The translations under genes and the position numbers were made by a program. This document shows, one piece after another, positions 1,812 to 27,629 of a DNA stretch of 64,000 nt (positions are counted from its first letter, which is position 1; every line of letters starts with the position of its first letter). Below the pieces are notes generated by a model, which saw only the letters and a list, made by a program, of their open reading frames with translations, did no database searches and was not told where the DNA came from. Source of the DNA: Mycobacterium sherrisii (GTDB lineage: Bacteria; Actinomycetota; Actinomycetes; Mycobacteriales; Mycobacteriaceae); NCBI RefSeq assembly GCF_002102355.1, contig NZ_LQPT01000040.1, forward strand, positions 62,001-126,000, given 5' to 3'.

Positions 1812-1921
1812 GGTTCCACGATAGGCGGGTTTTCCCGTTCAGTCGGATCGGCCCGGCCCGGCCCAGCAACATATGAATTTTATATGAGTGGGCTTCGGAA
1901 CCGCCGCCGCCAGTGGCCGAA

Positions 1922-1936
1922 TGAATACTGTATACA
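1922..1936. promoter_or_regulatory. GntR-type operator candidate, site A (PPE promoter)
   Basis: The sequence TGAATAC-T-GTATACA fits the 15-base pattern TGYATRC-N-GTATRCA seen at six other places in the window, with one mismatch. It lies 62 bases upstream of the PPE start codon, between the divergent DUF2277 and PPE genes. I infer that the GntR/FCD regulator encoded at 17612-18322 binds it. Confidence 0.55.
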
Positions 1937-1997
1937 ACGTTGCGCCCGAGGCGCTATGAGATCGGCGACATATCGCAAGACCACAAGCGAGGCAGGC

Positions 1998-3296
1998 ATG
2001 GACTTCGGGGCGTTACCACCGGAAGTGAACTCCGGCCGGATGTATTCGGGCCCCGGTCCTGGGACTCTGCTGTCCGCGTCCGCCGGGTGGGAGGAGCTGG
2101 CCGTCGAGATGCACATGGCGGCCGGCCGATGCGAGGCCGTGATCGCCGAATTGATCAGTGAATCCTGGACGGGTCCCTCGTCGATGGCGATGACCGCCGC
2201 GATACTGCCCTACACCGCATGGGTGCGAGACACCGCCACCCAGTGCGAGGAAGTCGCGACGAAGGCCACCGCTGCCGCCTATGCCTACGAGACGGCCTTT
2301 GCGATGACAGTGCCCCCGCCGCTCATCGCCGCCAACCGGGCACGCCTGGCCGCACTGGTGGCCAGCAACCTGATCGGCCAGAACACGCCGGCCATTATGG
2401 CCACCGAGGCCGAGTACGCCGACATGTGGGCCGTCGACGCGGCAGCGATGTACGGTTATGCGGCCAATGCTGTTGCGGCATCCGGACTCTCGGCCTTCAC
2501 GGCTCCCCCATGCACGGCCGAGGCGAGCGGGCCGGAAAGCAGCGCGCAGGGCGTGTCGGCCAAGCTGTTGCAATCGGCGGCGACCACTTTGCAAGGCATG
2601 TCCGGACCCGGTTCCGGCGCGTCGACCACGCTGAGCACGACGGGGCCGCTGGCCTCGTCCGGGCTGTCCGGGCTCTCCGGCCTTTCGCCGTTGGCCATGC
2701 TGTCGCGAGTGGCCAAGACCTCCGGCAAAGCCGTCCCTACCACCACCAATGCCGGAATCCAGAGCGCGTCGCAGCTCGCCCTGGCGATGCACAGCCTCGT
2801 CGACGTCAGTAGCGGTAGCGCTCCCGAAATCGGCACCAGCGCATTGGGTTTCGGCTCCGATGGTTTCGGGTTGAGTACCGACATCAGTGGGTTCGCCCTG
2901 GATTTGGCCGGCTCCGGTCTCGAGTTGGTGGGCAGCGACTCGCTGTTGGGTGTCGAGGAAGCCCTCCCCGAATTGGGCGCGGTCGGGCCGCTGGGTGCTC
3001 TGGATCAGCTTGTCGATCCCTGGGCGGCGGGATTGGGCGGTGACCCCGCGGCGGGTCTCGGGCAGGCCTCCCACTTGGGAACCCTGTCGGTCCCACCTGG
3101 TTGGCTCAACGCGGCTTCGGGACCTTCGGCCTCGCCCGCCGCCGGCCCGGATGGACATCATTCGGCGCCCGGGGCCCCGCACAAACACCACGCCAAGCTC
3201 CCACCCGGCGGCATGGTGACGCACGCGTCCGGCAGCGCGGCTCACCGAGTGGGCGTGCCGACCACCCTCATGCCCCGTTCCCCGATCGGCGGCTGA
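1998..3296 (+). CDS. PPE family protein, PPE-SVP subfamily
   Basis: A 432-residue PPE protein. The start MDFGALPPEVNSGRMYSGPG is the invariant PPE N-terminus, with PPE at residues 7-9, and was chosen over an in-frame upstream extension. The roughly 180-residue helical PPE domain contains the SWTGPSSMAM (WxG-type) turn and the NLIGQNTPAIMATEAEYADM segment. The C-terminal part is Gly/Ser/Leu-rich with SVPPGW near the end, which places it in the SVP subfamily. PPE proteins pair with PE proteins and are exported by ESX/type VII systems to the cell envelope, and some are reported to act as nutrient channels. No PE gene is adjacent; the only PE in the window is at 10458-10757. Operator site A sits in its promoter, which suggests co-regulation with the oxalate genes. 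Confidence 0.93.
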   Translation: MDFGALPPEVNSGRMYSGPGPGTLLSASAGWEELAVEMHMAAGRCEAVIAELISESWTGPSSMAMTAAILPYTAWVRDTATQCEEVATKATAAAYAYETAFAMTVPPPLIAANRARLAALVASNLIGQNTPAIMATEAEYADMWAVDAAAMYGYAANAVAASGLSAFTAPPCTAEASGPESSAQGVSAKLLQSAATTLQGMSGPGSGASTTLSTTGPLASSGLSGLSGLSPLAMLSRVAKTSGKAVPTTTNAGIQSASQLALAMHSLVDVSSGSAPEIGTSALGFGSDGFGLSTDISGFALDLAGSGLELVGSDSLLGVEEALPELGAVGPLGALDQLVDPWAAGLGGDPAAGLGQASHLGTLSVPPGWLNAASGPSASPAAGPDGHHSAPGAPHKHHAKLPPGGMVTHASGSAAHRVGVPTTLMPRSPIGG

Positions 3297-3312
3297 GGTG
3301 AAACCCTGTTCG

Positions 3313-3349
3313 CTGTTATGACGGCCCGCTTCACTTTTCGTCATAGCGG
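3313..3349 (+). terminator. hairpin downstream of the PPE gene
   Basis: TATGACG (3317-3323) and CGTCATA (3339-3345) form a perfect 7-base-pair stem. The stem extends to 11 pairs if two G-T wobbles are allowed, with a 15-base loop, starting 17 bases after the PPE stop. There is no T-tract, as is common for mycobacterial terminators, so this is a weak call. Confidence 0.35.
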
Positions 3350-3531
3350 GCGGCTTCGGTGCGCTACGCGAATTGCTGTTCTGCTCTTACCGCCCGGTGG
3401 CGGATGTGATGGATGCGTTCTTCGCGCCGGACTACGAACACCGCGACGACGGAAAGACCTCGGCTGCGCACGCCGAGCCAGGCGCGCTTACAGGTGCCCA
3501 ATGCCGAAGACCGCACGGCAGCCGAACTGTC

Positions 3532-4497
3532 TTACCCCTTCATCAGTTCGCCGACGTGCGCGACGACGGAATCCGCGAGTCCTCGCAAGTCGTAACCCCC
3601 CTCGAGGATCGCGACCAGTCTTCCGTCGCAATGCTTTTCGGCGGCGTTCAGCAACTCACGGGTAACCCAGCCGAAGTCGTCGGCGGTCATCGTCAGTGAG
3701 CCGAGCGGGTCACGTTCGTGCGCGTCGAATCCCGCCGACACCAGGATCAGCTCCGGAGCGAAGCCCTCGAGGGCGGGCAATATCCGTTGCTGGAATGCCG
3801 CACGCAATTGCGCACCGCCGTCGCCGGGGCGCAGCGGTGAGTTGAAGATATTGCCGACCCCCGTTTCGCCGACGGCACCCGTGCCCGGGAAGAGCGGCAT
3901 TTGGTGGGTAGACGCGTACAGCACGTCGGCGTCGGAGTAGAAGATCTGCTGCGTGCCGTTGCCGTGATGCACGTCGAAATCGACGATCGCAACCCGCTGC
4001 ACACCATGCTCGCGCTGCGCGTGCCGCGCGCCGATGCTGATGTTGTTGAACAAACAAAAACCCATGGCCCGTTCTGTTTCCGCGTGATGCCCCGGTGGCC
4101 GGCACGCCACGAACGCGTTTTGCACGCGGCCGGTCAACACGCTATCGATCGCCTGCAGCGTGCCGCCCACTCCGCGCAGCACCACCTCCCAGGTCGACGG
4201 CTCCATCATGGTGTCGCCGCCATCGAGGTACACATAGCCCCCCGCGCCCCCCGCGCCCCCCGTACCCTCGGCGCCCTCCGCCGGGCGAGCGGCTTCGAGC
4301 TCGTCGACGTAGCGGTTGGAATGCACGTAGCGTGTCGTCGCCAGGTCGGCAATCTCCGCACGCTCGCGCACCAGGGTGTCGAATTGCGGCTGGCGCAGCG
4401 CCGCTTCCACCACGCGGTAACGGTCCGGACGTTCCGGATGTCCCCCCGCCGTTCGATGCTTGGCGAAGCTCGGATGGTCCAGCAACAGGGTGGGCAT
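3532..4497 (-). CDS. histone deacetylase-fold zinc amidohydrolase (AcuC/HdaH type)
   Basis: A 321-residue member of the arginase/deacetylase superfamily. It carries the full catalytic set: RPPGHHAE (tandem His, about residues 133-140), VDFDVHHGNGTQ (zinc-binding Asp and His, about 171-182), a YASTH segment, and SAGFDAHERDP (second zinc Asp, about 255-265). Members remove acetyl groups from polyamines, acetyl-lysine or small amides. A Gly/Ala-rich stretch near residue 80 (EGTGGAGGAGG) looks like a loop insertion encoded by a C-rich repeat. The start ATG at 4497 begins MPTLLLDHPSF, as in the family. It is monocistronic and convergent with the PPE gene. The substrate cannot be read from the sequence. 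Confidence 0.88.
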   Translation of the reverse strand: MPTLLLDHPSFAKHRTAGGHPERPDRYRVVEAALRQPQFDTLVRERAEIADLATTRYVHSNRYVDELEAARPAEGAEGTGGAGGAGGYVYLDGGDTMMEPSTWEVVLRGVGGTLQAIDSVLTGRVQNAFVACRPPGHHAETERAMGFCLFNNISIGARHAQREHGVQRVAIVDFDVHHGNGTQQIFYSDADVLYASTHQMPLFPGTGAVGETGVGNIFNSPLRPGDGGAQLRAAFQQRILPALEGFAPELILVSAGFDAHERDPLGSLTMTADDFGWVTRELLNAAEKHCDGRLVAILEGGYDLRGLADSVVAHVGELMKG

Positions 4498-4616
4498 TGG
4501 GTGGACCTCCTTCGGTCACGAACTGCCGACAGCGCAGCGGTGTGCGGTCCGGATCGGCTACGCAGCCGATGCTAGTGTGCGGTGTTCCGACGCCCCAGCG
4601 TGATTGATTTTAGATA

Positions 4617-5789
4617 TCAAACCGACGGTCCGCGTTCGGCGAACGAATGCGGCTGCGCCTGCCAGGACCGGGTGCTGTCCCGGATCAGTTGCTCGGTCAC
4701 CCGGATCAGCAGTTCGGCGGCGTTGGCCGTGCAACGCGTCAGATCCGGCTCCACTTCGTTGAGCGTGCGCACGGCGCCGAAACCCGCGGTGCGGGCCTGG
4801 GCGCCGGTCAAGCTCGAGATCCCGGCGACGGCGAAGGTCGGGATACCGTGCGCGTGCGCGTGGCGGGAAACGCCCACCGGCGCCTTGCCGCGCAACGACT
4901 GGTGGTCGAGGGACCCCTCCCCGGTGATGACCATGATGGCGCCCAACAACTTTCGATCGAGCTCGACCAGGTCGAGGATCATGTCGATGCCGGGTTTCAT
5001 CTGGGCGCCCAGCACGGCCAGCGCGCCGAATCCCACCCCGCCCGCGGCACCGGCGCCCGGCGCATTCCGGCGGTCATCGCCGGTCACCCGTGCCACCAGG
5101 TCCGCCCAGTGCGTCAGGCCGCGGTCCAGTTCGGCGATCTGATCGGCGCTGACGCCTTTTTGTGGTCCGTAGACGGCGGCGGCGCCGAGCGGCCCGCACA
5201 GCGGGCTGTCCACGTCGGCGGCCAGCGTGACGGTGGCCGTGCTCAGACCCGGATGCAGCCGGCTCACATCGAGACGGGCAGCATCGGCCAACCCCTGTCC
5301 GCCGGATGCGATCGGAACGCCGTGGCGATCCTGCACCTCGGCGCCCAGCGCCATCAGCATCCCCACACCGCCGTCAGTACTGGCGCTGCCGCCCACCGTG
5401 ATCACCAGATCACGGCATCCGTCGTCGAGCGCCTGGGCGATCACCTGCCCCAACCCGTAGCTCGTCGCCGTCATCGGCGCCATCGTGTCGCCCGGAAGTC
5501 GCTGCAGGCCACAGATATCGGCCATCTCGATGACCGCTCGCCCATCCTTGCGGGCATACCCGGTACGCACGGGAGCACCGGTCGGACCACTCGCCTCCGC
5601 GTCGACCGGCTCGAATCCGGCCGCCACGACCGCGCTCAGCGTGCCTTCTCCCCCATCCGCGACGGGGCAGACGATCGGCGTCAGTTCCGGGTTGGCCCGA
5701 TTCACCCCCTGGGCCATTGCCCCCGCGGCCTGCTCGGCCGTCAACGAGCCCTTGAACTTGTCTGGCGCCAGCACGATGTTGCCCCGCAT
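4617..5789 (-). CDS. glxK: glycerate 2-kinase (GlxK/GarK type)
   Basis: A 390-residue glycerate kinase that phosphorylates D-glycerate with ATP, giving 2-phosphoglycerate in this family (class I). It begins MRGNIVLAPDKFKGSL, the family's typical N-terminus, and contains PVADGGEGTL, TVGGSASTDGGVGML and ITGEGSLDHQSLRGKAPVG, the conserved substrate and nucleotide segments. It diverges from hyi-glxR-gcl across a 330-base region with IclR-type palindromes. Here it would take the glycerate made by GlxR and feed lower glycolysis and the nearby pyruvate kinase. Length is normal for the family. Confidence 0.92.
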   Translation of the reverse strand: MRGNIVLAPDKFKGSLTAEQAAGAMAQGVNRANPELTPIVCPVADGGEGTLSAVVAAGFEPVDAEASGPTGAPVRTGYARKDGRAVIEMADICGLQRLPGDTMAPMTATSYGLGQVIAQALDDGCRDLVITVGGSASTDGGVGMLMALGAEVQDRHGVPIASGGQGLADAARLDVSRLHPGLSTATVTLAADVDSPLCGPLGAAAVYGPQKGVSADQIAELDRGLTHWADLVARVTGDDRRNAPGAGAAGGVGFGALAVLGAQMKPGIDMILDLVELDRKLLGAIMVITGEGSLDHQSLRGKAPVGVSRHAHAHGIPTFAVAGISSLTGAQARTAGFGAVRTLNEVEPDLTRCTANAAELLIRVTEQLIRDSTRSWQAQPHSFAERGPSV

Positions 5790-5828
5790 CAGGAGACCAT
5801 CCCATCAAGGTTGAGCCGCAAGCAGACA

Positions 5829-5843
5829 TTCCGTCAGACGGAA
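5829..5843. promoter_or_regulatory. IclR-type operator candidate 1 (glxK side)
   Basis: TTCCGTC-A-GACGGAA is a perfect 15-base palindrome of the form TTCCG-N5-CGGAA, 40 bases upstream of the glxK start. A half-copy (TTCCGTCTGAA) follows at 5850-5860. This architecture is known for IclR-family regulators of actinobacteria, including AllR of allantoin/glyoxylate metabolism. The IclR gene at 9684 is the obvious candidate to bind it. Confidence 0.6.
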
Positions 5844-6026
5844 TCTGACTTCCGTCTGAACAAACCTGACATACCCGCAGAATTGGTGTCAAAAGTTTCT
5901 TAGCCGACACCCGGCCTCCCATCCAAACTGCTTATCAAAGACGACAATTGGCGTTGTCGGCAGCGCGGCCGGAGTTGACAGCAATAGTGGTATCGCCTTG
6001 ACTAATTCCGTATTCCGATGCGGCGA

Positions 6027-6041
6027 TTCCGCATCGCGGAA
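6027..6041. promoter_or_regulatory. IclR-type operator candidate 2 (hyi side)
   Basis: TTCCG-CATCG-CGGAA repeats the pattern of the palindrome at 5829-5843 and lies about 80 bases upstream of hyi. It is embedded in further TTCCG half-sites (6006-6010 and 6013-6017) and overlaps a GATGCGG-N5-CCGCATC dyad (6017-6035). The cluster of half-sites suggests cooperative binding of a tetrameric IclR protein. Confidence 0.6.
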
Positions 6042-6119
6042 CCACGCTCTTTCGTGACGTGCGGCGGGCCCGTTCAGGGGGCACGCCGGCTCCTCGCGGT
6101 CTAAGCAGGAAAGGACAGC

Positions 6120-6977
6120 ATGGCTACTGCGACCTATACGGTGAACTGCTCGATCCTCTTCACCGACCTACCCGTACTGGAACGGCCGGCCGCCGCGCGG
6201 GCGGCAGGCTTTGAGGCAGTGGAATTTTGGTGGCCGTTCATCGAAGCGACACCGCCTGAGGCCGACGTCACGGCCTTCATCCGCGCCATCGAAGAGGCCG
6301 GCGTGCAGTTGTCCGGTCTGAACTTCTTTGCCGGTTACATGGCCGGCGGCGACCGGGGCGTTCTGTCCGATCCCGCCCTGACCACCGAATTCCGCGACAA
6401 CGTGCGGGTGGCGGTCAGCATCGCCGAAGCCCTGGGCACCCAAGCCTTCAATGCCTTGTACGGCAACCGGATTGAAGGTGTGGCCCCCGACGTTCAAGAC
6501 GACGTGGCGGCCAAGAACATCGCCTACGCCGCGCAGGCCGCGCAGCGTATCGGCGCGACGGTGCTCATCGAGCCGGTCAGCGGTGCGCCGCTCTACCCGC
6601 TCAAGACCGCCGCCGACGCCGTTGGCGTCATCGACCGCGTCAACGCGGAGGCCGGCACCACCAATCTGCGCCTCCTGGCGGACTTTTATCACCTGTATGT
6701 CAACAACGACGATGTGGTCGCGGCGGTGCAAAGCCACCGGGACCTGATCGGGCACATCCAAATCGCCGACGCCCCCGGACGCGGCGAGCCCGGCACCGGC
6801 GAGATCCCGCTGGGCGAGTACTTCGAAGTCCTGGGGTCGGAGTACGGCGGCTACATCGGCTTGGAATACAAGCCCTCTCGGGAGGACACCTTCGACTGGT
6901 TGCCGACCTCCGAACGGGGGCGCGGCGGCTTCAACGTCGAATCACTGAACACACTAACAGGAACGAGGAATCGGTGA
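6120..6977 (+). CDS. hyi: hydroxypyruvate isomerase
   Basis: A 285-residue TIM-barrel sugar-isomerase-like protein. Hyi interconverts hydroxypyruvate and tartronate semialdehyde beside glyoxylate carboligase. The start MATATYTVNCSILFTDLP is preceded by AGGAAAGGA four bases upstream. The probable catalytic glutamates are in VLIEPVSGAP (about residue 149) and GLEYKPSRED (about 248). It is about 25 residues longer at the C-terminus than the E. coli protein. It is the first gene of the hyi-glxR-gcl operon and its stop overlaps the GTG start of glxR (GTGA). Confidence 0.88.
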   Translation: MATATYTVNCSILFTDLPVLERPAAARAAGFEAVEFWWPFIEATPPEADVTAFIRAIEEAGVQLSGLNFFAGYMAGGDRGVLSDPALTTEFRDNVRVAVSIAEALGTQAFNALYGNRIEGVAPDVQDDVAAKNIAYAAQAAQRIGATVLIEPVSGAPLYPLKTAADAVGVIDRVNAEAGTTNLRLLADFYHLYVNNDDVVAAVQSHRDLIGHIQIADAPGRGEPGTGEIPLGEYFEVLGSEYGGYIGLEYKPSREDTFDWLPTSERGRGGFNVESLNTLTGTRNR

Positions 6978-7867
6978 GCACGATCGCATTTATCGGGCTA
7001 GGCATCATGGGCAACCCGATGGCCTGCCACTTCGCCCGCGCGGGACACACGGTCATTGGCTACAACCGCTCGCCGGGCCGGGCCGCGGCGCTGATCGAGG
7101 CGGGCGGTACGGAGGCGGACTCGATCGCCGAGGCGGTCAAGAACGCCGACGTGGTGGCCGTCATGGTGCCCGACTCGCCCGACGTCCAAGCCGTATTACT
7201 CTCCGAAGGAGGGGTTTTCGCCAACGCCCGGCCCGGGACGCTGGTGATCGACTTCTCCTCGATCCGGCCCGACATCACCGCGCAACTGGCTAAGGAAGCC
7301 ACCGAACGCGGGTTGCGCCTCATCGACGCGCCGGTGTCCGGTGGTGAGGCCGGCGCCAAGAACGCGACGCTGTCGATCATGGTCGGGGCGACCGACGAGG
7401 ACTTCGCCGCCGCCAAACCCTTCCTCGAGGTCGTCGGCAAGACGGTCGTGCATGTCGGCCCCAACGGGGCGGGCCAGACCGTCAAGGCCGCCAACCAGCT
7501 GATCGTGGCGGGCAACATCGAGCTGCTGGCCGAGGCGATCAACTTCCTGCGCGCCTACGGGGTCGACCTGGAGGCGGCCGTCAAGGTGCTCGGTGGCGGC
7601 CTGGCCGGCTCGGCGGTGCTTGACCAGAAGGCGTCAAAGATGTTGGCGCGCAACTTCGATCCCGGCTTCCGGATCGAACTGCACCACAAGGACATGGGTA
7701 TCGTCACCAGCGCGGCCCGGGAGGCCGGCGCGGCGATCCCACTCGGTGCCGTCGTCGCACAGCTGATGGCGTCGGCCCTGGCCAACGGTGACGGGTCGCT
7801 CGACCACTCCGGCCTGTTGCGCGGTGTGGAGCGCCTGTCCGGACACACCGAAGGTGGCACCCAATGA
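6974..7867 (+). CDS. glxR: tartronate semialdehyde reductase (2-hydroxy-3-oxopropionate reductase)
   Basis: A 297-residue beta-hydroxyacid dehydrogenase that reduces tartronate semialdehyde to D-glycerate with NAD(P)H. Visible motifs are the dinucleotide-binding [10 protein letters not shown] (residues 7-16), the substrate-binding [11 protein letters not shown] (about 117-127) and the catalytic lysine in [10 protein letters not shown] (about 171). Translation starts at GTG 6974, overlapping the hyi stop by 4 bases, and its own stop overlaps the gcl start (ATGA). The three enzymes are therefore translationally coupled, with glxK divergent. Confidence 0.92.
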
Positions 7868-9657
7868 CCCGGATGCGTACCGTCGACGCGGCGGTGAAGA
7901 TCCTCGAAATCGAGGGTGCGACCAAACTATTCGGCCTGCCCGGCGCGGCGATCAACCCGTTCTACTCGGCGATGCGGGCCCACGGCGGAATCCAGCACGT
8001 GCTGGCGCGCCACGTCGAGGGCGCCAGCCACATGGCCGAGGGATACACCCGCGCGGCACCGGGCAACATCGGTGTGTGCATCGGCACCTCGGGCCCCGCG
8101 GGTACCGACATGATCACCGGTTTGTATTCGGCCAGCGCGGATTCCATCCCGATCCTGGCCATCACCGGCCAGGCCCCGGTGAACAAGTTGCACAAAGAGG
8201 ACTTTCAGGCGGTCGACATCGCCTCGATCGCGGCGCCCGTGACGAAGATGGCGATGACGGTTCTGGAACCGGGGCAGGTTCCCGGAGCCTTCGCCCAGGC
8301 GTTTCATCTGATGCGCTCGGGCCGTCCCGGTCCGGTGCTGATCGACCTGCCGATCGACGTGCAGCTGGCCGAAATCGACTTCGACCCAGAGGCTTACGCT
8401 CCCCTGCCGGTCTACAAGCCCTCGGCCACCGCGGCGCAAATCAGCAAAGCCCTCGATATGCTGTGCAGCGCCCAACGCCCGCTGATCATCGCCGGCGGCG
8501 GCATCATCAACGCCGACGCCTCGGCACTGCTGATCGAGCTGGCCGAAGTGCTCAACGTCCCGGTGGTGCCGACGCTGATGGGCTGGGGAACCATTCCCGA
8601 CGATCACCGGCTGGCCGCGGGCATGGTCGGGTTGCAGACCGCGCACCGGTATGGCAACGCCACGTTGCTCGAATCGGATTTCGTCATGGGTATCGGCAAC
8701 CGGTGGGCCAACCGGCACACCGGCGGGCTCGAGACCTACCGCCGGGGTCGGCGGTTCGTCCACATCGACATCGAGCCGACCCAGATCGGCCGAGTGTTCT
8801 CCCCAGACTTCGGCATCGTCTCCGATGCCAAGGCGGCGCTGGAACTACTCGTCGCCGCGGCCCGTGAGCGCCGCAGCGCCGGTAGCCTGCCGGACTTCAC
8901 GGACTGGGTGAGCGGTTGCCAGGAACGCAAGCGCACGATGCACCGCAAGACCCACTTCGACGACATCCCGATCAAGCCGCAACGCGTCTACGAAGAGATG
9001 AACCGGGCGTTCGGCCGGGATGCGCGGTACGTCACGGCCATTGGTCTGTCCCAGATCGCAGGCGGTCAATTCCTGCAGGTGTTCAAGCCGCGGCATTGGA
9101 TCAACTGCGGCCAGGCCGGACCCCTGGGGTGGACGGTGCCCGCCGCGCTCGGCGTGGTGGCCGCCGATCCGTCGGCCACGGTGGTGGGGCTGTCGGGTGA
9201 CTACGATTTCCAGTTCCTGATCGAAGAGCTCGCCGTCGGCGCGCAGTTCAATCTGCCCTACGTCCACGTCGTGGTGAACAACTCCTACCTGGGGTTGATC
9301 CGGCAGGCGCAGCTCAACTTCGACATGAACTACTTCGTTTCGCTGGCGTTCGATAACATCAATGCCCAGGAGTCGGAAGACACCGACCTACCAAAGGGCT
9401 ATGGAGTCGATCATCGTCGCGTGGTGGAAGGGTTGGGCTGCAAAGCGATTCAGGTCTCTGACCCCGACCAGATCGCACCGGCGCTGGCTCGCGCCCAGCA
9501 ACTCGCGCGTGAGCACAAGGTTCCGGTGGTGGTCGAGATCTTCCTGGAGCGCATCACGAACATCGCGATGGGCACCGACATCGACAAGATCACCGAGCAC
9601 AATGAACTGGCGGCCACCCTCGATGATTCGCCCACTGCAGCAATGTTGTTCGACTAG
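7864..9657 (+). CDS. gcl: glyoxylate carboligase
   Basis: A 597-residue thiamine-diphosphate enzyme that condenses two glyoxylates to tartronate semialdehyde and CO2. The segment [15 protein letters not shown] (about residues 46-60) has Val where nearly all ThDP enzymes have the catalytic Glu. That substitution is the known hallmark of Gcl and separates it from acetolactate synthase. [12 protein letters not shown] and the C-terminal ThDP motif ([10 protein letters not shown] ... NNSYLGLI) are present. The start ATG overlaps the glxR stop. It is the committed step for carrying glyoxylate into the glycerate pathway. Confidence 0.95.
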
Positions 9658-9683
9658 TTCATCGCCCGCTAGACCGTGACCCG

Positions 9684-10451
9684 ATGAGCGAAGACGACCG
9701 CCGGAGCGGGGTTCAGTCAGTAGAGCGGGCTTTCGGGGTGCTGGAGATCCTGGCCGCCATGGGCGGGACAGGGGCACTAGGTGAACTTGCGGCACGCGCT
9801 CATCTGCCGCAACCCACCATGCACCGTTTGGTGCGGACCCTGCTGAGCATGGGGTATCTACGGCAGCTGCCCAACCGGCATTATTCGTTGGGGCCGAAGC
9901 TGATCCGCCTGGGCGAGAGTGCCGGCGAGCTGATCGGCATGTGGTCCCGGCCGCACCTCGGCGAGCTGGTGGAACGCACCGGCGAGACGGCGAACATGGC
10001 GGTGATGGACAACGACATGGCCGTCTACGTCGCTCAGGTCCCGTCCCCCCATTCCATGCGGATGTTCACCGAGGTCGGCCGGCGCGTCTACCTGCATTGC
10101 ACGGGGGTGGGTAAAGCGCTGCTGATGCAGCTGCCCGACGACGCATTGCGTGCCCTGGTGGCGCGCACCGGGATGCCGGCGGCCACCGAGAACTCGCACA
10201 CCACCCCCGACGGGTTGCTGCAAGACATCACGTTGTGCCGGGCCCGTGGCTACGCGGTCGACGAGGGCGAGCAGGAAATCGGTGTGCGGTGTTTTGCCGT
10301 GCCGGTGCCCGACGCCCCGTCACTGACCGCGATATCGATCTCGGGTCCCGCGGTGCGGGTCACCCTGACGTCCGCGCCCACGATCACGCCGTTGTTGAAG
10401 CGCGTCGCCCACGACATCTCCTCGACGTTCCACAACGGCGCCGCCTGCTAA
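9684..10451 (+). CDS. IclR family transcriptional regulator (AllR-like)
   Basis: A 255-residue regulator with an N-terminal winged helix (about residues 10-75, including LGELAARAHLPQPTMHRLV) and the IclR effector-binding domain (about 85-250, with GRRVYLHCTGVGKALLMQLP and GYAVDEGEQEIGVRCFAVPV). It lies 26 bases after gcl on the same strand and may share its transcript. Two TTCCG-N5-CGGAA palindromes between glxK and hyi are its likely operators. By analogy with AllR its effector may be glyoxylate or a related small acid, which is inference. It is convergent with the PE gene, with 6 bases between stops. Confidence 0.88.
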   Translation: MSEDDRRSGVQSVERAFGVLEILAAMGGTGALGELAARAHLPQPTMHRLVRTLLSMGYLRQLPNRHYSLGPKLIRLGESAGELIGMWSRPHLGELVERTGETANMAVMDNDMAVYVAQVPSPHSMRMFTEVGRRVYLHCTGVGKALLMQLPDDALRALVARTGMPAATENSHTTPDGLLQDITLCRARGYAVDEGEQEIGVRCFAVPVPDAPSLTAISISGPAVRVTLTSAPTITPLLKRVAHDISSTFHNGAAC

Positions 10452-10457
10452 CGCGGC

Positions 10458-10757
10458 TCACTCGGTAGCGGCGGCGTTGGCGGCCTCGGTCGCGGCATAC
10501 GAATTCGCGCTGGCCGCCATGGTTTTGACCAGGCTGTCATGGACGGCCGAGGCTTGCGCGCTAACCGCCTGATACATGTGCGCCTGCATGCGCAACTGTG
10601 CCGCGAGCAGTTGCGACACCTCGTCCGCGGCCGCGGGAACCACACCTGACGTGGGTCCCGCCGCCGCGGCGTTCTGGGCGTCCATCGCCGCCCCGACGGC
10701 GCCCAGCTGCGAAGCCGCCCCTGCCAAAGCCTCAGGATCGACGTTGACGAATGACAT
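10458..10757 (-). CDS. short PE family protein
   Basis: A 99-residue PE protein consisting only of the PE domain: [20 protein letters not shown] with PE at residues 8-9 (the usual position), followed by two Ala-rich helices. A YxxxD/E-type secretion signal of ESX substrates may be present near the C-terminus (SYAATEAAN). GGGAG lies 8 bases before the ATG. It begins 27 bases after the pyruvate kinase stop on the same strand. It therefore looks like the third gene of a panE-like/pyk/PE operon, an unusual partner set for a PE gene. A PPE partner is not adjacent; the PPE at 1998-3296 is a candidate. Confidence 0.92.
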
Positions 10758-10784: not shown

Positions 10785-11960
10785 TCAGCCGTAGACGCGG
10801 CTGGCGGCAGCGTTGCCGCCGAGGTGGGCGTAGCGCTCGGCGACCGCCCGGAGTCGCCGCCGTACCACCCGGGCCGCAGCCAGGATCACCTCGCCGGGGA
10901 AATCCCGGCGTTGCTCGTTGCGGCCGGCCCAGTACGGGGCTTCGCCGCGGTCGATCGCGGCTTCGGCCTCTTCGACGATGCGTGCCATCGTGGCCACGGT
11001 GTGGGCGGGATAGGCGCCGACACTGGTTTCGGCGGACAACATTACGGCGCCCGCGCCGTCGAGCACCGCGTTGGCGACGTCGGAGACCTCGGCCCGGGTC
11101 GGCCGGCGGTCGGAAACCATCGAGTCGAGCATGTGCGTGGCCACGATGACCGGCTTGTCCGCGTCGCGGCACAGCCGTATCACTCGCTTTTGGACCAGCG
11201 GAATCTGTTCCAACGGCATCTCCACACCCAGGTCACCGCGGGCCACCATCACGCCGTCGAACGCGGCGACGATCGCCGGCAGGCACGAAACGGCCTCCGG
11301 CTTCTCCAGTTTCGCGATCACCGGCACCCGCCGGCCGACCTCGGTCATCACGTCGTGAGCCAGTTCGACCTCCTCGGGAGCGCGCACGAATGACATGGCG
11401 ACCATGTCCACGCCGAGCTGCAGTGCGAACTTCAGATCGGCAATGTCCTTGTCGGACAAGGTCGGAGCGCTCACGGCGATGCCGGGCAGCGAGATGCCCT
11501 TGTTGTCACTCACCGGCCCGCCGTGGATGACCTCGCACCCGATGTCGGCCCCGTTGACTTCCACCACCGCCAGGTCGATCCGGCCGTCGTCGACGAGCAG
11601 CCGGTCGCCGGTTTTCACGTCCGCGCAAAGACCCCCGTAGGTGGTGGAGACGCGGTCGTGATCGCCCGGGCAGGTGTCGGTGGTGATCGAAACTTTCTCA
11701 CCGGCACTCCAGACCACCGGCCCGTTGGCGAACCGGCCCAACCGGATCTTGGGTCCCTGCAGGTCCGCCAGCACTTGAACGGTGCGGCCGCGGCTGGCCG
11801 CGATCTCGCGGACCAGATCGTACAAGGCCGAGTGCTCGGCGTGGGTGGCGTGGCTGAAATTCAAACGCGCAACGTCCATTCCGGCGTCGATGAGTTCGGC
11901 CAGACGGGGAGCGGTCGCGGTGGCGGGTCCGAGTGTGCAAACGATCTTGGTGGTGCGCAT
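10785..11960 (-). CDS. pyruvate kinase lacking the C-terminal domain
   Basis: A 391-residue pyruvate kinase, where about 470 is usual. The catalytic A and B domains are intact: ARLNFSHA (near residue 33), [22 protein letters not shown] with the catalytic Lys (about 213-222), [12 protein letters not shown] (about 237) and the C-terminal edge of the barrel, [16 protein letters not shown]. Only about 50 residues follow and they do not resemble the regulatory C domain. The next gene starts 28 bases beyond the stop, so no displaced C domain can be hidden there. ATLML-type residues read ATHMLDSM where ATQMLESM is common. ATG 11960 was preferred to an in-frame TTG because AAAGGA precedes it by 8 bases. 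The context, with glycerate-pathway genes, suggests conversion of PEP from glycerate. Confidence 0.88.
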
Positions 11961-11974
11961 CAAAGGTGTCCTTT

Positions 11975-12003
11975 CCCTTAGCGTCCCTTAGCGTCCCTTA
12001 GCG
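11975..12003. repeat. tandem CCCTTAGCGT repeat between panE-like gene and pyk
   Basis: Three near-perfect head-to-tail copies of CCCTTAGCG(T) span the panE-like stop codon and the start of the 37-base gap before pyk. The TAA stop of the panE-like gene lies in the last copy, so copy-number change would alter the intergenic spacing and possibly the last codons. Confidence 0.7.
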
Positions 12004-13023
12004 CAACGCCGCTTGTGGTTGTTGTTGCACGATCCCGTCACCGGGTGAGGGGGCCACCCCGCAGGTACGCGCGAGGAGACCGGTGGCCGCGTGGACGGTG
12101 CGCAGCGTGGGGGCGGGCGCCTTGGTCAGGTCGGCGAGTTCCACCACCGCGGAGACGATCGCGTCGAGCTCCAGCTGCTTGCCCGCTTCCAGGTCTTGCA
12201 GCATGGAAGTCTTGTGATGGCCGACGTTTTCGGCACCCCGCAGCCTCTTCTCGATCGAGATGTCGGGCGTGCAGCCCAATCTGGCCGCGATGTCCAGCGT
12301 CTCCTCCATCAGCTGGATCACCACCTGGCGCGTGTTGGGGTCCTGGCACATTTCGACCATCGTGGCTCTGGTCAACGCGCTGAGCGGATTGAAGGCCACG
12401 TTGCCCATCAACTTGATCCAGATGTCGTCGCGCAAGTTCGTTTCCACCGGGCATTTCAGGCCGCCGGCAATCATCGCCTCGCTCAGCGCTGTGCACCGCT
12501 CGGACAGTTCGCCGGAGGGTTCGCCGATGGAAAATCGAGTCCCCTCGAGGTGGCGGACCACGCCGGGCTCGTCGAGAACCGTCGCCGGGTAGACCACGCA
12601 GCCGATTGCCCGCTCCGGCGCCAAGACGGCACTGGTGGCGCCGCCCGGATCGACCGCTTCGATGCGGTGTCCCTCGAACGGGCCCGCCAACCGGTAGAAG
12701 TACCACCACGGAATTCCGTTCTGCGCGGCGACAACCGCCGTATTCGGTCCCATCAACGGCTCCACCAACGGACCGCAGGTGGGATAGCTGTGTGCTTTGA
12801 GCCCCAAGAAGATGTAGTCGACCGGCCCCACCTCCGCTGGGGAGTCCGTGACGTGAGGATGAGCTACGAAGTCGCCGCGCGGGCTCAGTACGCGTACTCC
12901 GTTTTTCTGCATGGCTCGCAGGTTGTCGTTTCGCGCGATCAGGTGAACGTCAGCACCACCGCGGTGCAACGCGGCGCCCCAATATGCCCCGATCGCTCCG
13001 GCTCCTACGACTGCAATTCTCAT
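11998..13023 (-). CDS. ketopantoate reductase family; candidate oxalyl-CoA reductase
   Basis: A 341-residue ketopantoate-reductase-fold NADPH enzyme. It has the nucleotide-binding VGAGAIGAYWGAAL (residues 5-18) and catalytic-site segments LGLKAHSYP, WIKLMGNVAFNPLSALT, TSMLQDLEAG and LELDAI. The start ATG at 13023 follows AGGAG; an upstream in-frame codon lacks this. By itself it would be called PanE. Its place among frc, oxc, formate dehydrogenase, transhydrogenase and glyoxylate-pathway genes points instead to the oxalyl-CoA reductase role described for PanE2 of Methylobacterium extorquens (oxalyl-CoA plus NADPH to glyoxylate). It is the first gene of a probable operon with pyk and PE. Operator site B lies in its divergent promoter with pntAA. 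Confidence 0.75.
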   Translation of the reverse strand: MRIAVVGAGAIGAYWGAALHRGGADVHLIARNDNLRAMQKNGVRVLSPRGDFVAHPHVTDSPAEVGPVDYIFLGLKAHSYPTCGPLVEPLMGPNTAVVAAQNGIPWWYFYRLAGPFEGHRIEAVDPGGATSAVLAPERAIGCVVYPATVLDEPGVVRHLEGTRFSIGEPSGELSERCTALSEAMIAGGLKCPVETNLRDDIWIKLMGNVAFNPLSALTRATMVEMCQDPNTRQVVIQLMEETLDIAARLGCTPDISIEKRLRGAENVGHHKTSMLQDLEAGKQLELDAIVSAVVELADLTKAPAPTLRTVHAATGLLARTCGVAPSPGDGIVQQQPQAALR

Positions 13024-13088: not shown

Positions 13089-13103
13089 TGCATACAGTAT
13101 GCG
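13089..13103. promoter_or_regulatory. GntR-type operator candidate, site B (panE-like / pntAA)
   Basis: TGCATAC-A-GTATGCG is a 15-base dyad whose inner 13 bases (13090-13102) are a perfect palindrome. It lies in the 181-base divergent promoter region, 66 bases from the panE-like start and 102 bases from the pntAA start, so one site could control both operons. Confidence 0.65.
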
Positions 13104-13204: not shown

Positions 13205-14296
13205 ATGCCTGCGATAGGAGTGCCTCGCGAAATCACCGATGGCGAAAGCCGAGTCGCCCTGGTACCCGCCGTCGTCGAACGCTTGCGGGGTGCCGGCCAC
13301 GAACTCATCGTCGAGACGGGCGCAGGTGAGGGAGCGTTGTTCCACGACGAGGACTACAAAAAGGCCGGCGCCGTCATCGGCGACCCGTGGTCGGCCGACG
13401 TAGTGGTCAAGGTGAATCCGCCGACCGAGACCGAGATCAGCCGGATGAAGCAGGGCGCCTACCTGATTGGGTTCCTCGCGCCCCGCACCCGGCCCGAGGT
13501 CGGTGCGCAACTGCGACGCGCCGGGGTCACGGGCTTCGCCATGGAGGCGGTCCCCCGGATCTCTCGCGCACAGACCATGGACGCGCTATCTTCCCAAGCC
13601 AACGTCGCGGGATACCAGGCGGTGCTGTGTGCCGCGCAGTGTTTGACCCGCTTCGTCCCGATGATGACCACGGCCGCCGGAACAGTTAAGCCGGCAACGG
13701 CCTTGGTGCTCGGCGTCGGGGTGGCCGGGCTGCAGGCACTGGCCACGGCGAAGCGACTCGGCGCCCGCACCACCGGTTTCGATGTGCGTCCCGAGGTTGC
13801 TGACCAGGTCCGCTCGCTGGGCGCCAAGTGGCTGGACCTCGGTGTCACCGCGGCGGGCGAGGGCGGGTACGCCCGCGCGCTGACGCCCGAGGAACAGGCC
13901 GACCAGCAACGCCGGCTCACCGAGGCGATCCCCGGCTTCGACGTGGTCATCACCACGGCCCTGGTCCCCGGCAGTCCCGCACCCCGACTGGTCACCGCCG
14001 AAGCGGTACGCCAAATGCGTAGCGGCAGCGTCGTGGTCGACCTGGCCGGCGAGGCAGGCGGCAACTGTGAACTCACCGTGCCGGGCGAAACGGTACGGCG
14101 ACACGACGTGACAATCTGTGCGCCACTGAACCTTCCGGCGACCATGCCCGAACACGCCAGCGAACTCTATGCGCGCAACATTCAGGCCCTGCTGGAGCAC
14201 ATGCTCAGCGGCACGGGCACCCCCGACCTCGCTGACGAAATCCTGGACGCTTGCTGCGTCACCAAGTCCGACAACGAACGCACGGAGACCCGATGA
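13205..14296 (+). CDS. pntAA: NAD(P) transhydrogenase subunit alpha part 1
   Basis: The 363-residue NAD(H)-binding domain I subunit of the proton-translocating transhydrogenase. It begins MPAIGVPREITDGESRVAL and contains GVGVAGLQALATAKRLGA (Rossmann fold), followed by FDVRPEV. The ATG at 13205 has AGAGG a few bases upstream; the longer open frame lacks family similarity. Alpha is split in two (AA and AB), as in mycobacteria and Rhodospirillum. Its stop overlaps pntAB (ATGA). In this locus it would pass reducing power from formate-derived NADH to NADPH for oxalyl-CoA and tartronate semialdehyde reduction. Confidence 0.93.
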   Translation: MPAIGVPREITDGESRVALVPAVVERLRGAGHELIVETGAGEGALFHDEDYKKAGAVIGDPWSADVVVKVNPPTETEISRMKQGAYLIGFLAPRTRPEVGAQLRRAGVTGFAMEAVPRISRAQTMDALSSQANVAGYQAVLCAAQCLTRFVPMMTTAAGTVKPATALVLGVGVAGLQALATAKRLGARTTGFDVRPEVADQVRSLGAKWLDLGVTAAGEGGYARALTPEEQADQQRRLTEAIPGFDVVITTALVPGSPAPRLVTAEAVRQMRSGSVVVDLAGEAGGNCELTVPGETVRRHDVTICAPLNLPATMPEHASELYARNIQALLEHMLSGTGTPDLADEILDACCVTKSDNERTETR

Positions 14297-14604
14297 CACT
14301 CGTGGCCAACCTCGCGATCCTGACGCTGGCCGGCTTTGTCGGCTTCGCCGTGATATCGAAGGTTCCCAACACCTTGCACACTCCATTAATGTCTGGTACC
14401 AACGCAATTCACGGCATCGTGCTGCTTGCCGGCCTGGTACTACTGGGCCAGTCGGCCACCGACGCGTTCGACCGAGTGTTGCTGGTCATCGCGATCGCTT
14501 TCGGCGCGATCAACGTCGTAGGTGGATTCCTCGTTACCGATCGCATGCTCAGCATGTTCAAGAAGAAGCCCACCGCTCAGGCTGGAAAGGTTGCGTCTTC
14601 GTGA
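14293..14604 (+). CDS. pntAB: NAD(P) transhydrogenase subunit alpha part 2
   Basis: A 103-residue membrane subunit with three predicted transmembrane helices (about residues 3-25, 35-55 and 63-83). It includes the conserved segment MSGTNAIHGIVLLAG of the proton-channel domain II. The start ATG overlaps the pntAA stop and the stop overlaps the GTG start of pntB, so the three subunits are translationally coupled. A lysine-rich tail (FKKKP) follows the last helix, as expected for the cytoplasmic side. Confidence 0.93.
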   Translation: MTLVANLAILTLAGFVGFAVISKVPNTLHTPLMSGTNAIHGIVLLAGLVLLGQSATDAFDRVLLVIAIAFGAINVVGGFLVTDRMLSMFKKKPTAQAGKVASS

Positions 14605-15989
14605 ATGACGTTATCGCCGTTCTCTATATCGTTGCGTTCGCCCTGTTCATTCTGGGCCTGTCGGGTCTGACCGGTCCGCGGACGGCGGCGCGCGGCAACC
14701 TCATCGCCGCCGTGGGCATGACGATCGCGATCGTGGCGACCTTGCTGACCCCGGGCACCACCAACTGGTTACTCATCGCACTCGGCCTGATCCTCGGGAC
14801 GCTGGTCGGCGTGCCCGCGGCCCAGCGGGTCAAGATGACCGCGATGCCTCAGATGGTGGCGCTGTTCAACGGCGTCGGCGGCGGCGCGGTGGCCCTGGTC
14901 TCGTGGGTGGAGTTCCGCGACAGTCACTGCTACGCCGCGGTGCCGGCCTACGTCGCGACCGCGTCGCTGTTTGCCGCGATTGTCGGTTCGCTGTCGTTCT
15001 GGGGATCGTTGATCGCATTCGGCAAACTGCAAGAAGTCTTGCCCGGCAGGCCCATTGGCGTGGGCCGGGCCCAGCAGCCGCTCAACCTGCTGCTGCTGGT
15101 CGCCGCCGTGGGATGCGCGGGGGCGATCGGATTCGGTCAGCGCGGGCAGCTGCTGTTCATCGGTGTGCTGGTCTTCGCGGCGGTGCTCGGCTTCATGGTG
15201 GTGCTGCCGATCGGCGGCGCGGACATGCCGGTGGTGATCTCGTTGCTCAACGCGCTCACCGGACTTTCGGCGGCGGCAACCGGGCTAGCCCTGGACAACA
15301 CGGCGCTGATCGTGGCGGGCATGATCGTCGGGGCCTCGGGCACCATCTTGACCAACCTGATGGCCAAGGCGATGAACCGGTCGATTCCGGCCATCGTCGC
15401 CGGCGGATTCGGCGCCTCCGGCGCCGGCGCGGCGGGCGGGGAGGCCACCGGCGACCAGACCGTGCGCCAGACCAGCGCCGCCGACGCCGCCTTGCAGATG
15501 GGCTATGCCAGCCAGGTGATCATCGTGCCCGGTTACGGCATGGCGGTGGCACAAGCCCAGCACGCGGTGCGCGAGATGGCCGGGCTGCTCGAGGAACGCG
15601 GCGTGGAGGTCCGCCACGCCATCCATCCCGTGGCCGGCCGCATGCCCGGGCACATGAATGTGTTGCTCGCCGAGGCCGACGTGCCCTACGAACACCTCAA
15701 GGAGATGGACGAGATCAACGGCGAGTTCAGCCGTGCCGACGTCGCTCTGGTGATCGGGGCCAACGACGTGACAAACCCAGCGGCACGGTCGAATCCGGCC
15801 TCCCCGATCTATGGCATGCCGATCTTGGACGTCGACCAGGCCAAGTCCGTCATCGTATTGAAGCGATCCATGAATCCCGGATTCGCCGGCATCGAGAACG
15901 AACTGTATTTCAACGAGAAAACTTCGATGCTGTTCGGTGACGCGAAATCCTCGGTTGCCGAAATCACCGAGGAGCTAAAGGTTTTGTGA
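14601..15989 (+). CDS. pntB: NAD(P) transhydrogenase subunit beta
   Basis: A 462-residue subunit. The N-terminal two thirds carry about nine membrane helices (domain II, including VPAAQRVKMTAMPQMVALFNG). The C-terminal soluble domain III binds NADP(H) through VPGYGMAVAQAQHAV and has the VAGRMPGHMNVLLAEA and GANDVTNPAA segments. Start GTG 14601 overlaps pntAB by GTGA; open frame further upstream belongs to shadow reading of pntAA/AB. It uses the proton gradient to drive hydride transfer from NADH to NADP+. Formate dehydrogenase follows 97 bases downstream on the same strand. Confidence 0.94.
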   Translation: MNDVIAVLYIVAFALFILGLSGLTGPRTAARGNLIAAVGMTIAIVATLLTPGTTNWLLIALGLILGTLVGVPAAQRVKMTAMPQMVALFNGVGGGAVALVSWVEFRDSHCYAAVPAYVATASLFAAIVGSLSFWGSLIAFGKLQEVLPGRPIGVGRAQQPLNLLLLVAAVGCAGAIGFGQRGQLLFIGVLVFAAVLGFMVVLPIGGADMPVVISLLNALTGLSAAATGLALDNTALIVAGMIVGASGTILTNLMAKAMNRSIPAIVAGGFGASGAGAAGGEATGDQTVRQTSAADAALQMGYASQVIIVPGYGMAVAQAQHAVREMAGLLEERGVEVRHAIHPVAGRMPGHMNVLLAEADVPYEHLKEMDEINGEFSRADVALVIGANDVTNPAARSNPASPIYGMPILDVDQAKSVIVLKRSMNPGFAGIENELYFNEKTSMLFGDAKSSVAEITEELKVL

Positions 15990-16085: not shown

Positions 16086-17261
16086 ATGTCAAAAGTGGTG
16101 TGCGTCCTTTACGACGACCCAGTAACCGGATATCCCAGCGAGTATCCGCGCGACGGTCTGCCCGCTCTGGAGCGTTACCCGGACGGGCAAACGTTGCCTA
16201 CCCCGGAGGCCATCGACTTCACCCCGGGTACGTTGCTGGGCAGCGTCTCCGGCGAGTTGGGGCTGCGCCCCTACCTGGAGAGCCTCGGTCACGAGTTGAT
16301 CGTGACCTCGGACAAGGACGGCGAGAACTCGGAGTTCGACAAGCACCTCGCGGACGCCGAAATCGTTATCTCGCAGCCCTTTTGGCCCGCCTACCTGACC
16401 GCCGAGCGGATCGCGCGCGCGCCCAAGCTGAAGCTGGCGGTCACCGCGGGTATCGGTTCGGACCACTACGACCTTGACGCGGCCATCGAGGCGGGCATCA
16501 CGGTCGCCGAGGTCACCTTCTGCAACAGCATCAGCGTCGCCGAGCACGTCGTGATGATGATCCTCTCGCAGGTCCGCAACTACCTGCCGTCCTACAAGTG
16601 GGTCATCGACGGCGGCTGGAACATCGCCGACTGCGTGCAGCGGTCGTACGACCTAGAGGGAATGCACGTCGGCACCATCGCGGCCGGCCGGATCGGGCTG
16701 GCGGTGCTGCGGCGGCTGGCGCCGTTCGACGTGCACCTGCACTACACCGACAAGCACCGGCTGCCCGCCGAGGTGGAAAAGGAACTGAACCTGACCTTCC
16801 ACCCCAGCGTCCAGGACATGGTCCCGCACCTCGACGTGGTGACCATCAACGCGCCGCTGCACCCCGAGACCCGCGGGCTGTTCAACGAAGAGCTGATCGG
16901 CACCATGAAGCGGGGCGCCTACCTCATCAACACGGCGCGCGCGCTGATCTGCGACCGCGATGCCGTCAAGCGGGCGCTGGAAAGCGGCCAACTGGCCGGC
17001 TACGCCGGGGATGTCTGGTTCCCCCAGCCGGCACCGGCCGACCACCCGTGGCGCACCATGCCCCACCACGGCATGACGCCGCACATCTCGGGTTCCACGC
17101 TGTCGGCGCAGACTCGGTACGCGGCCGGCACCCGGGAAATCCTGGAGTGCTACTTCAACGGCAACCCGATTCGCGACGAGTACCTCATCGTCGACGGCGG
17201 CGCGCTGGCCGGTGTCGGGGCACGCTCCTACACCGCGACCGCCAAGTCCGGCGCGGCCTAG
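16086..17261 (+). CDS. fdh: NAD-dependent formate dehydrogenase
   Basis: A 391-residue cofactor-free formate dehydrogenase of the D-2-hydroxyacid dehydrogenase superfamily, which oxidises formate to CO2 with NAD+. It closely resembles the Pseudomonas sp. 101-type enzyme. Visible are AVTAGIGSDHYDL, FCNSISVAEHVV (substrate Asn), the Rossmann AAGRIGLAVLRRL, HYTDKHRLP with the Asp that selects NAD+, NTAR (catalytic Arg), PQPAPADHPW and MTPHISGSTL (catalytic His). ATG 16086 is the family start. It would burn formate from formyl-CoA and deliver NADH. It ends 64 bases before a strong intrinsic terminator, so pntAA-AB-B-fdh looks like one operon. Confidence 0.95.
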   Translation: MSKVVCVLYDDPVTGYPSEYPRDGLPALERYPDGQTLPTPEAIDFTPGTLLGSVSGELGLRPYLESLGHELIVTSDKDGENSEFDKHLADAEIVISQPFWPAYLTAERIARAPKLKLAVTAGIGSDHYDLDAAIEAGITVAEVTFCNSISVAEHVVMMILSQVRNYLPSYKWVIDGGWNIADCVQRSYDLEGMHVGTIAAGRIGLAVLRRLAPFDVHLHYTDKHRLPAEVEKELNLTFHPSVQDMVPHLDVVTINAPLHPETRGLFNEELIGTMKRGAYLINTARALICDRDAVKRALESGQLAGYAGDVWFPQPAPADHPWRTMPHHGMTPHISGSTLSAQTRYAAGTREILECYFNGNPIRDEYLIVDGGALAGVGARSYTATAKSGAA

Positions 17262-21446: not shown

Positions 21447-21461
21447 TGTATACCGTATACG
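21447..21461. promoter_or_regulatory. GntR-type operator candidate, site E (frc1)
   Basis: TGTATAC-C-GTATACG is the most symmetrical copy of the motif: the inner 13 bases are a perfect palindrome. It is oriented toward frc1, whose start is 225 bases away, implying a long leader or an upstream promoter. Confidence 0.65.
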
Positions 21462-21684: not shown

Positions 21685-21699
21685 TGTATACAGTATGCA
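21685..21699. promoter_or_regulatory. GntR-type operator candidate, site F (transporter 2)
   Basis: TGTATAC-A-GTATGCA matches the consensus at every position. It abuts the AGGAGG ribosome-binding site (21699-21704) of the second OFA-type transporter, so a bound repressor would block early transcription. Confidence 0.7.
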
Positions 21700-24599: not shown

Positions 24600-24679
24600 A
24601 TCGGATTTCCTTTCTTTTCTGTGCTTTCCAGTTACCTTGTGTCGACGACCTGATCGGTAGGCCGACATGCCAACGCATT

Positions 24680-27570: not shown

Positions 27571-27629
27571 CGGGCCTCCTCCTTGCCTGCCAACCGCGCC
27601 GAAAGCCCCCACATTCACGAATTCGGGAC

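Follow-up and report, generated by a model that had tools for sequence, protein, structure and literature searches.

A PE gene and a PPE gene of Mycobacterium sherrisii share a putative operator with an oxalate catabolic locus

We analysed a 64,000-nucleotide stretch of the Mycobacterium sherrisii genome (assembly GCF_002102355.1, 5,562,166 bases), hereafter the window, which spans positions 62001-126000 of the 214,960-base contig NZ_LQPT01000040.1 and holds a PE gene, a PPE gene and a set of genes for oxalate catabolism. The original prediction for this DNA, made from the letters alone, was that the PE and PPE genes are wired into an oxalate regulon. This is strongly supported by the genome-wide specificity of a 15-bp dyad found in their promoters, by conservation of the arrangement in relatives, by a relocated PPE gene in another genome (G239) that has its own dyad, and by two separate gaps at the locus of Mycobacterium triplex. 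On this evidence the two genes very probably belong to an oxalate regulon linked to a GntR-type regulator. That the PE/PPE pair serves outer-membrane uptake of oxalate is a further step for which we see even chances; it combines the predicted regulon membership with published PE/PPE transporters.

A dyad confined to the locus in M. sherrisii

The 5.56-Mb genome contains the dyad, TGNATACNGTATNCA, five times with at most one mismatch, each time within the window, and the reversed control pattern has no occurrence in the whole genome at the same tolerance. With up to three mismatches allowed, the window holds 17 dyads compared with 5.25 +/- 2.42 in shuffled sequences. The five sites, together with the PE and PPE genes and those nearest to them, are as follows; gene identities come from Pfam and NCBIfam profile scans of the window proteins.

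1922..1936, dyad of the PPE promoter (putative operator, site A), TGAATACTGTATACA, a perfect match 61 bp upstream of the PPE start at 1998
1998..3296, plus strand, PPE protein (PPE-SVP), 432 amino acids, histidine-rich basic C-terminal tail (PF00823 and PF12484)
10458..10757, minus strand, PE protein, 99 amino acids, YAATE near its end (PF00934)
10785..11963, minus strand, pyruvate kinase, barrel domain (pyk; PF00224)
11998..13023, minus strand, panE-like protein of the ketopantoate-reductase family (PF02558, PF08546)
13089..13103, dyad between panE-pyk-PE and pntAA-pntAB-pntB, TGCATACAGTATGCG, one mismatch
13205..15989, plus strand, pntAA, pntAB and pntB (transhydrogenase)
17612..18322, plus strand, GntR-FCD regulator (PF00392 at 71.7 bits and PF07729 at 91.9 bits, both above cut-off)
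21447..21461, dyad upstream of formyl-CoA transferase 1 (frc1)
21685..21699, dyad upstream of the second MFS transporter gene (MFS2), a perfect match
27630..27644, dyad between the LysR and PAS genes

The dyad that had been predicted in the PPE promoter was thus borne out. The PE gene had been described as the third gene of a panE-like/pyk/PE transcript with a dyad in its promoter, and this order proved right: the gaps are 34 bp from panE to pyk (counted to the pyk TTG at 11963) and 27 bp from pyk to PE, which is compatible with a single transcript, with PE closing the series. The pyk-PE gap is similarly 12-31 bp in five relatives. We took the panE start to be the ATG at 13023 (13050 in the longest frame) and the pntAA start to be 13205 (longest frame from 13148), so that the 13089 dyad sits between divergent panE on the minus strand and pntAA on the plus strand and is usable by either promoter. 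The claim that the same dyad precedes the oxalate genes stands for frc1 and MFS2 but not for the genes of oxalyl-CoA decarboxylase (oxc) and formyl-CoA transferase 2 (frc2), nor for the hyi-glxR-gcl genes; no dyad with three or fewer mismatches lies upstream of oxc-frc2 or hyi-glxR-gcl, and a portion of the oxalate genes is therefore without it.

The PE gene was also said to be the only one, which is true of the window but not of the genome, where we found 13 PE matches (one borderline) and 41 PPE matches. A scan of 43 PE/PPE loci in M. sherrisii, covering 30 of the 41 PPE and all 13 PE matches with about 1.5 kb per side where the contig allowed, found the dyad (at most two mismatches) at just this PPE; at the PE gene the scanned stretch falls short of the PE operon promoter.

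We aligned the PPE promoters of the six intact orthologues, the G239 gene and a remnant in G194. Across these eight rows the top-base fraction averages 0.96 over the 15 dyad columns, 11 of which are invariant, compared with a mean of 0.59 and 9 invariant columns among the 158 that lie outside both of the promoter's dyads. The second dyad forms another conserved block in this alignment:

1870..1886, second dyad of the PPE promoter, 17 bp, CATATGAATTTTATATG

In relatives it reads CATATGA-N3-TCATATG. With at most one mismatch it is present as one copy each, in the PPE promoter only, in 4 of 12 whole genomes searched (G000, G132, G249, G216); it has one further place in G194, is weaker in G239 and is worn in G031 and G363.

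The pair and its dyads in related genomes

We surveyed 396 genomes of the genus with cut-offs of E <= 1e-90 for the PPE and E <= 1e-180 for frc1. PPE matches were found in 16 genomes, and six of these lie at this locus: that of M. sherrisii itself and those of G132, G249, G031, G363 and G216, whose PPE proteins are 63-69% identical to it by tblastn. The other ten matches, at 44-57% identity, were taken as sister paralogues (the 57% match covers only 215 residues); the 6-9-kb stretches around seven of the ten hold no dyad with two or fewer mismatches and no counterpart of the small gene that lies 3' of PPE. In each of the six genomes with the PPE at this locus the dyad precedes it (with one mismatch in G216), and GntR, frc1, oxc and a PE gene in third place after panE and pyk are present as well, the PE orthologues being 71-77% identical to the window PE. 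A dyad in the position equivalent to 13089 is found in nine relatives (G132, G031, G249, G216, G363, G239, G194, G059 and, in two copies, G163). The motif and its linkage had been expected in related genomes that carry the oxalate genes, which holds for G132, G249, G031, G363 and G216 but not for G239 or for 12 more distant loci.

The six PPE proteins of the locus form one clade (support 100/99) and the six PE proteins one group (94/92; 96% of bootstrap trees), whose position among other PE is not fixed. Over 15 pairs per gene, the pairwise ratios of non-synonymous to synonymous substitution rates lie at 0.18-0.28 in PPE and 0.13-0.31 in PE, and both genes are under purifying selection.

Since each of the two dyads is flanked by divergent genes, the PPE dyad could serve only the divergent DUF2277 and DUF1802 genes and the 13089 dyad only pntAA, making PE and PPE bystanders. 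We regard this as highly improbable, and G239 gives one reason. There the PPE gene lies about 0.7 kb from pyk (L040:8698-10000) and not beside DUF2277, a gene absent from the 29.5-kb stretch, yet it has a perfect dyad, TGCATACAGTATGCA, 37 bp upstream of its start. The gene upstream of that dyad, of the iron-dependent-repressor family, has the same orientation and ends before the dyad, so that by the list of open reading frames PPE is the only gene reading away from it. In the tree, the N-terminal piece of this PPE branches as sister to the six locus proteins (support 90/87; grouped with them in 98% of 200 bootstrap trees), although its plain identity to the sister group is just as high, and the C-terminal piece scores 125-144 bits against the six compared with 56-64 bits against the sister group.

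M. triplex DSM 44626 (L114:3754-11553) argues in the same direction: it keeps DUF2277 and has no dyad with one or no mismatch anywhere in its genome, nor any GntR match at E <= 1e-20. Its DUF2277 gene ends 46 bp from the histone-deacetylase-like gene with no PPE between them; glycerate kinase, hyi, glxR, gcl and IclR follow in the order of the window, and 53 bp past IclR comes an enoyl-CoA hydratase gene (89%) whose place in the window is to the right of PAS. Two separate pieces are therefore missing, the PPE gene and everything from PE through PAS (panE, pyk, GntR, frc and oxc included), and five retained genes stand between them. In G163, finally, there are two dyads: panE has one nearby and so does pntAA. 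Mycobacterium palustre (L115) carries IclR along with the glyoxylate genes; PE and PPE are absent from its 20.8 kb, and it lacks both GntR and the dyad. For it and for M. triplex the PPE search covered locus stretches of 20.8 kb each.

At the G194 locus (L045, L046) we found a 59-residue PPE remnant, GntR in two pieces and a remnant of MFS2, with no PE and no gcl block, while the dyads are still there; judging by these remains, the regulon looks to be decaying in this genome. G059, whose assembly is in 540 contigs, has GntR and is outside the frc1 list; its pyk is followed by GntR, with no PE at the locus. Nor is there PE or PPE at eight further named distant loci (L117-L124).

A GntR-FCD protein as the likely dyad-binding regulator

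Among 297 genomes the exact dyad is present in 18, GntR (E <= 1e-60) in 30 and both in 12 (odds ratio 29, Fisher p = 1.4e-9, genomes being counted without correction for relatedness). A dyad with one mismatch lies upstream of the GntR gene itself in three relatives (G089, G132 and G239), which fits autoregulation. The GntR-FCD protein of the locus is, on these patterns, the likely dyad-binding protein. The exact-dyad genomes without GntR at this cut-off (G023, G053, G064, G115, G183 and G282) were taken as unrelated. Seven open reading frames beside the dyads of five of them (G023 left out) encode a PH-domain protein, an ANTAR response regulator, a formyltransferase, a methyltransferase, a TetR protein, a DUF7373 protein and one protein without a family, with no PE, PPE or porin among the seven.

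The dyad might instead be bound by the LysR or IclR protein, which are also encoded at the locus, and the dyad between the LysR and PAS genes would suit the former. Four genomes (G144, G170, G269 and G066), however, have GntR and dyads with no LysR match in stretches of 24-30 kb, and G239 and G194 have dyads with no IclR match (29.5 kb), which leaves this alternative improbable.

Features of the PE and PPE proteins

The PE domain (PF00934) was recognised at 4.9e-27 and 94.5 bits against a cut-off of 22, and the PPE protein contains PF00823 (210.9 bits) and PF12484 (38.1 bits), both above their cut-offs and indicating the SVP subgroup; NCBIfam named no PPE family for it. Signals for type VII secretion have the form YxxxD/E, and Y-x-x-x-E is found near the C-terminus of six of six PE orthologues. 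Within its own genome the PE protein is closest (65-66%) to two PE proteins encoded at a locus with EccB, an FtsK-type (EccC-like) ATPase, a P450 and PPE genes, which we take to be ESX-5 given the P450 there. The best solved matches of both proteins are PE8 and PPE15 (PDB 5xfs).

The PPE tail is unusual. The last 70 residues of the six locus PPE proteins contain 6-9 histidines, and basic residues (11-13) outnumber acidic ones (1-3); six sister sequences have 0 histidines, 5 basic and 4 acidic residues there. By the share of histidine after residue 180, this PPE ranks first (0.036; next 0.031) among the 17 readable PPE-like frames of the 41 PPE matches.

A possible oxalate route through the outer membrane

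The enzymes of the locus make up one route in which oxalate is converted to oxalyl-CoA and then to formate and CO2. The panE-like protein is possibly an oxalyl-CoA reductase by analogy with a known enzyme; if so, oxalyl-CoA would lead by way of glyoxylate, glycerate and phosphoglycerate to pyruvate. The analogue is PanE2 of Methylobacterium extorquens, reported as a putative and later as a characterised oxalyl-CoA reductase (PMC8411744). By that account M. extorquens likewise combines an oxalyl-CoA decarboxylase (Oxc) with a panE-like reductase, and unlike M. sherrisii it has no PE/PPE, which are mycobacterial families (described as such for PPE in PMC12607722).

The explanation that we favour overall, with little better than even confidence, is a GntR-dyad oxalate regulon that includes a PE/PPE heterodimer exported by ESX-5 and passing oxalate through the outer membrane. 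One dyad would control the regulon, most likely through the GntR-FCD protein of the locus. When oxalate or a product is present, the panE-pyk-PE and PPE transcripts would be made alongside frc1 and an oxalate/formate-type MFS carrier, and the transhydrogenase genes would probably be co-induced. PE and PPE would form a heterodimer, as their family suggests, and ESX-5 may export it, given the PE lineage and the YxxxE signal. Once in the outer membrane, the pair would let oxalate pass and the MFS carriers would then move it across the inner membrane.

PE/PPE pairs have been reported as outer-membrane nutrient transporters across several studies (PMC9731449, PMC12607722, PMC12977502, PMC13315784). 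PE19/PPE51 and others are described as carrying nutrients (PMC12607722) and PE15/PPE20 as carrying calcium (PMC9731449), and ESX-5 is reported to be required for certain carbon sources, a requirement that the porin MspA relieves for glycerol (PMC12977502).

We counted MspA-family porins in 39 chosen genomes. Twelve of these form the lineage set, namely the ten with a near GntR together with M. triplex and M. palustre, which we assume to belong to the same lineage as the near-GntR genomes. All 12 have 0 or 1 match, compared with 2-11 in 26 of the 27 others (G395 has 1). The regulon without PE/PPE is thus found mostly in porin-rich genomes and the regulon with PE/PPE in porin-poor ones, a correlation that follows one deep split of the tree and not many independent events. 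A more specific proposal, which we advance tentatively and consider somewhat doubtful, is that the pair is dedicated to oxalate as a substrate-induced outer-membrane route, its halves on separate transcripts under one operator, and that it arose in an MspA-poor lineage to replace general porins, with the histidine-rich basic PPE tail handling oxalate or an accompanying metal ion.

PE and PPE could also be true members of the GntR regulon with some other job, such as helping export, keeping the outer membrane tight, or binding calcium or a metal ion freed from calcium oxalate. The histidine-rich basic tail, absent from the six sisters, would suit such a role; PPE51 is reported to affect membrane integrity as well (PMC12607722), PE15/PPE20 to bind calcium as well as carry it (PMC9731449), and the operon of PE8-PPE15, the closest solved relatives, to aid secretion of other substrates (PMC7028111). 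The regulon, however, holds MFS carriers related to oxalate/formate carriers alongside catabolic enzymes, so that uptake is the simplest missing step, and we consider another job unlikely.

Several observations weigh against regulon membership and the uptake role. Dyads with one mismatch lie outside the locus in 7 of 10 near-group genomes, one to three in each (1 of 7 in G363 and in G132, 2 of 7 in G031, 3 of 9 in G249, 2 of 8 in G216, 2 of 4 in G059 and 1 of 2 in G089; none in G000, G239 or G194), and the reversed control pattern occurs once or twice in 4 of 13 genomes searched, so a lone one-mismatch site is weak evidence. The second conserved dyad in the PPE promoter means that GntR may not be the sole control. 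Some 7 kb separate PE from PPE, which are on different transcripts, whereas the studied pairs known to us are mostly adjacent. No such PPE is present in 26 of the 32 genomes with frc1; G089, the nearest by GntR (96%), lacks a PPE match at E <= 1e-90, and its stretch, on a short contig, contains neither oxc nor frc2; and there is no PE or PPE at the 12 more distant mapped loci, several of them on short contigs. In G239, where GntR, oxc, frc1 and frc2 appear intact, the PPE frame is broken and the 29.5 kb hold no PE; either this genome can do without the pair or the break comes from faulty assembly. The lineage still carries one MspA-family gene. Lastly, the AlphaFold model of the PPE protein is too poor for any inference about a pore (mean predicted local distance difference test score 41.5, predicted template modelling score 0.30), with some confidence in part of the N-terminal helices only.

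For comparison with described pairs, we take PE19 to be a member of the ESX-5 locus, and we know of no catabolic locus for PE15/PPE20 and of no oxalate link for PE8/PPE15. PE19/PPE51, reported for glucose and glycerol in Mycobacterium tuberculosis and Mycobacterium marinum (PMC12607722), resembles the present pair in having a PE near the ESX-5-locus PE, in serving a carbon nutrient and in its ESX-5 setting. It differs in that the present pair is split over two transcripts inside a catabolic regulon. For PE15/PPE20, as predicted for the present pair, expression responds to the substrate, but that substrate is an ion and not a carbon source, and expression is reported to fall with it (PMC9731449). 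PE8/PPE15, the best solved match to both proteins, is unlike the present pair in sharing one operon with EsxI-EsxJ according to PMC7028111.

If the function holds, the pair would be a new form of the known PE/PPE nutrient transporters. To our knowledge the substrates of most PE/PPE proteins have yet to be found, and an operator shared with one catabolic pathway allows a candidate to be named from sequence alone. The idea of PE/PPE proteins as outer-membrane transporters thereby becomes directly testable in non-tuberculous species, and seeking PE/PPE genes within local catabolic regulons is a method gained. We found no earlier description of a link between PE/PPE and oxalate in the open-access literature; most subscription journals lay outside this scope.

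Other features of the locus

From left to right the locus holds genes for DUF1802, DUF2277 (minus strand), PPE, a histone-deacetylase-like protein, glycerate kinase, hyi-, glxR- and gcl-like proteins and IclR; then PE, pyruvate kinase, panE-like, pntAA/AB/B, formate dehydrogenase, GntR-FCD, MFS and formyl-CoA transferase 1; and towards the right end MFS2, formyl-CoA transferase 2, oxalyl-CoA decarboxylase, LysR, PAS and enoyl-CoA hydratase. Two proteins matching TIGR03253 and one matching TIGR03254, all above cut-off, identify it as an oxalate catabolic locus. Features other than those given above are:

3361..3534, plus strand, stump of a small gene 3' of PPE (58-residue tblastn match, 48% to the G239 frame)
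3532..4497, minus strand, histone-deacetylase-like protein (PF00850)
4617..5789, minus strand, glycerate kinase (PF02595)
6120..9657, plus strand, hyi-glxR-gcl-like operon, glyoxylate to glycerate (Pfam domains; putative names from domains and order)
9684..10451, plus strand, IclR-type regulator (PF01614, PF09339)
16086..17261, plus strand, NAD-dependent formate dehydrogenase (NF005750, 692 bits against a cut-off of 329)
18286..19722, minus strand, MFS transporter, relative of the oxalate/formate antiport family (best NCBIfam match TIGR00890, below its cut-off)
19993..21222, minus strand, formyl-CoA transferase 1, frc1 (TIGR03253, above cut-off)
21713..23056, plus strand, MFS transporter 2 (MFS2), related to oxalate/formate and lactate carriers (NF049980 and TIGR00890, both below cut-off)
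23343..26392, minus strand, formyl-CoA transferase 2 (frc2) and oxalyl-CoA decarboxylase (oxc) (TIGR03253 and TIGR03254, both above cut-off)
26578..27573, minus strand, LysR-type regulator (PF03466, PF00126)
27726..28223, plus strand, PAS-domain protein (Pfam PAS families)

No role of the PAS protein in oxalate use is known to us. The divergent stretch between the LysR and PAS genes (27573-27726) contains overlapping dyads at 27623, 27630 and 27637.

The small gene 3' of PPE is present in G239, G132, G249, G031, G363, G216 and G194 and absent in M. triplex. By eye it had appeared SnoaL-like, an assignment that we rejected as the G239 frame has no Pfam match.

A dyad with no or one mismatch lies upstream of a histone-deacetylase-like gene at L036:14065, L045:5830, L050:10509 and L054:6017, though not in the window. 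Going by these promoters, the gene is a further predicted member of the regulon in some species.

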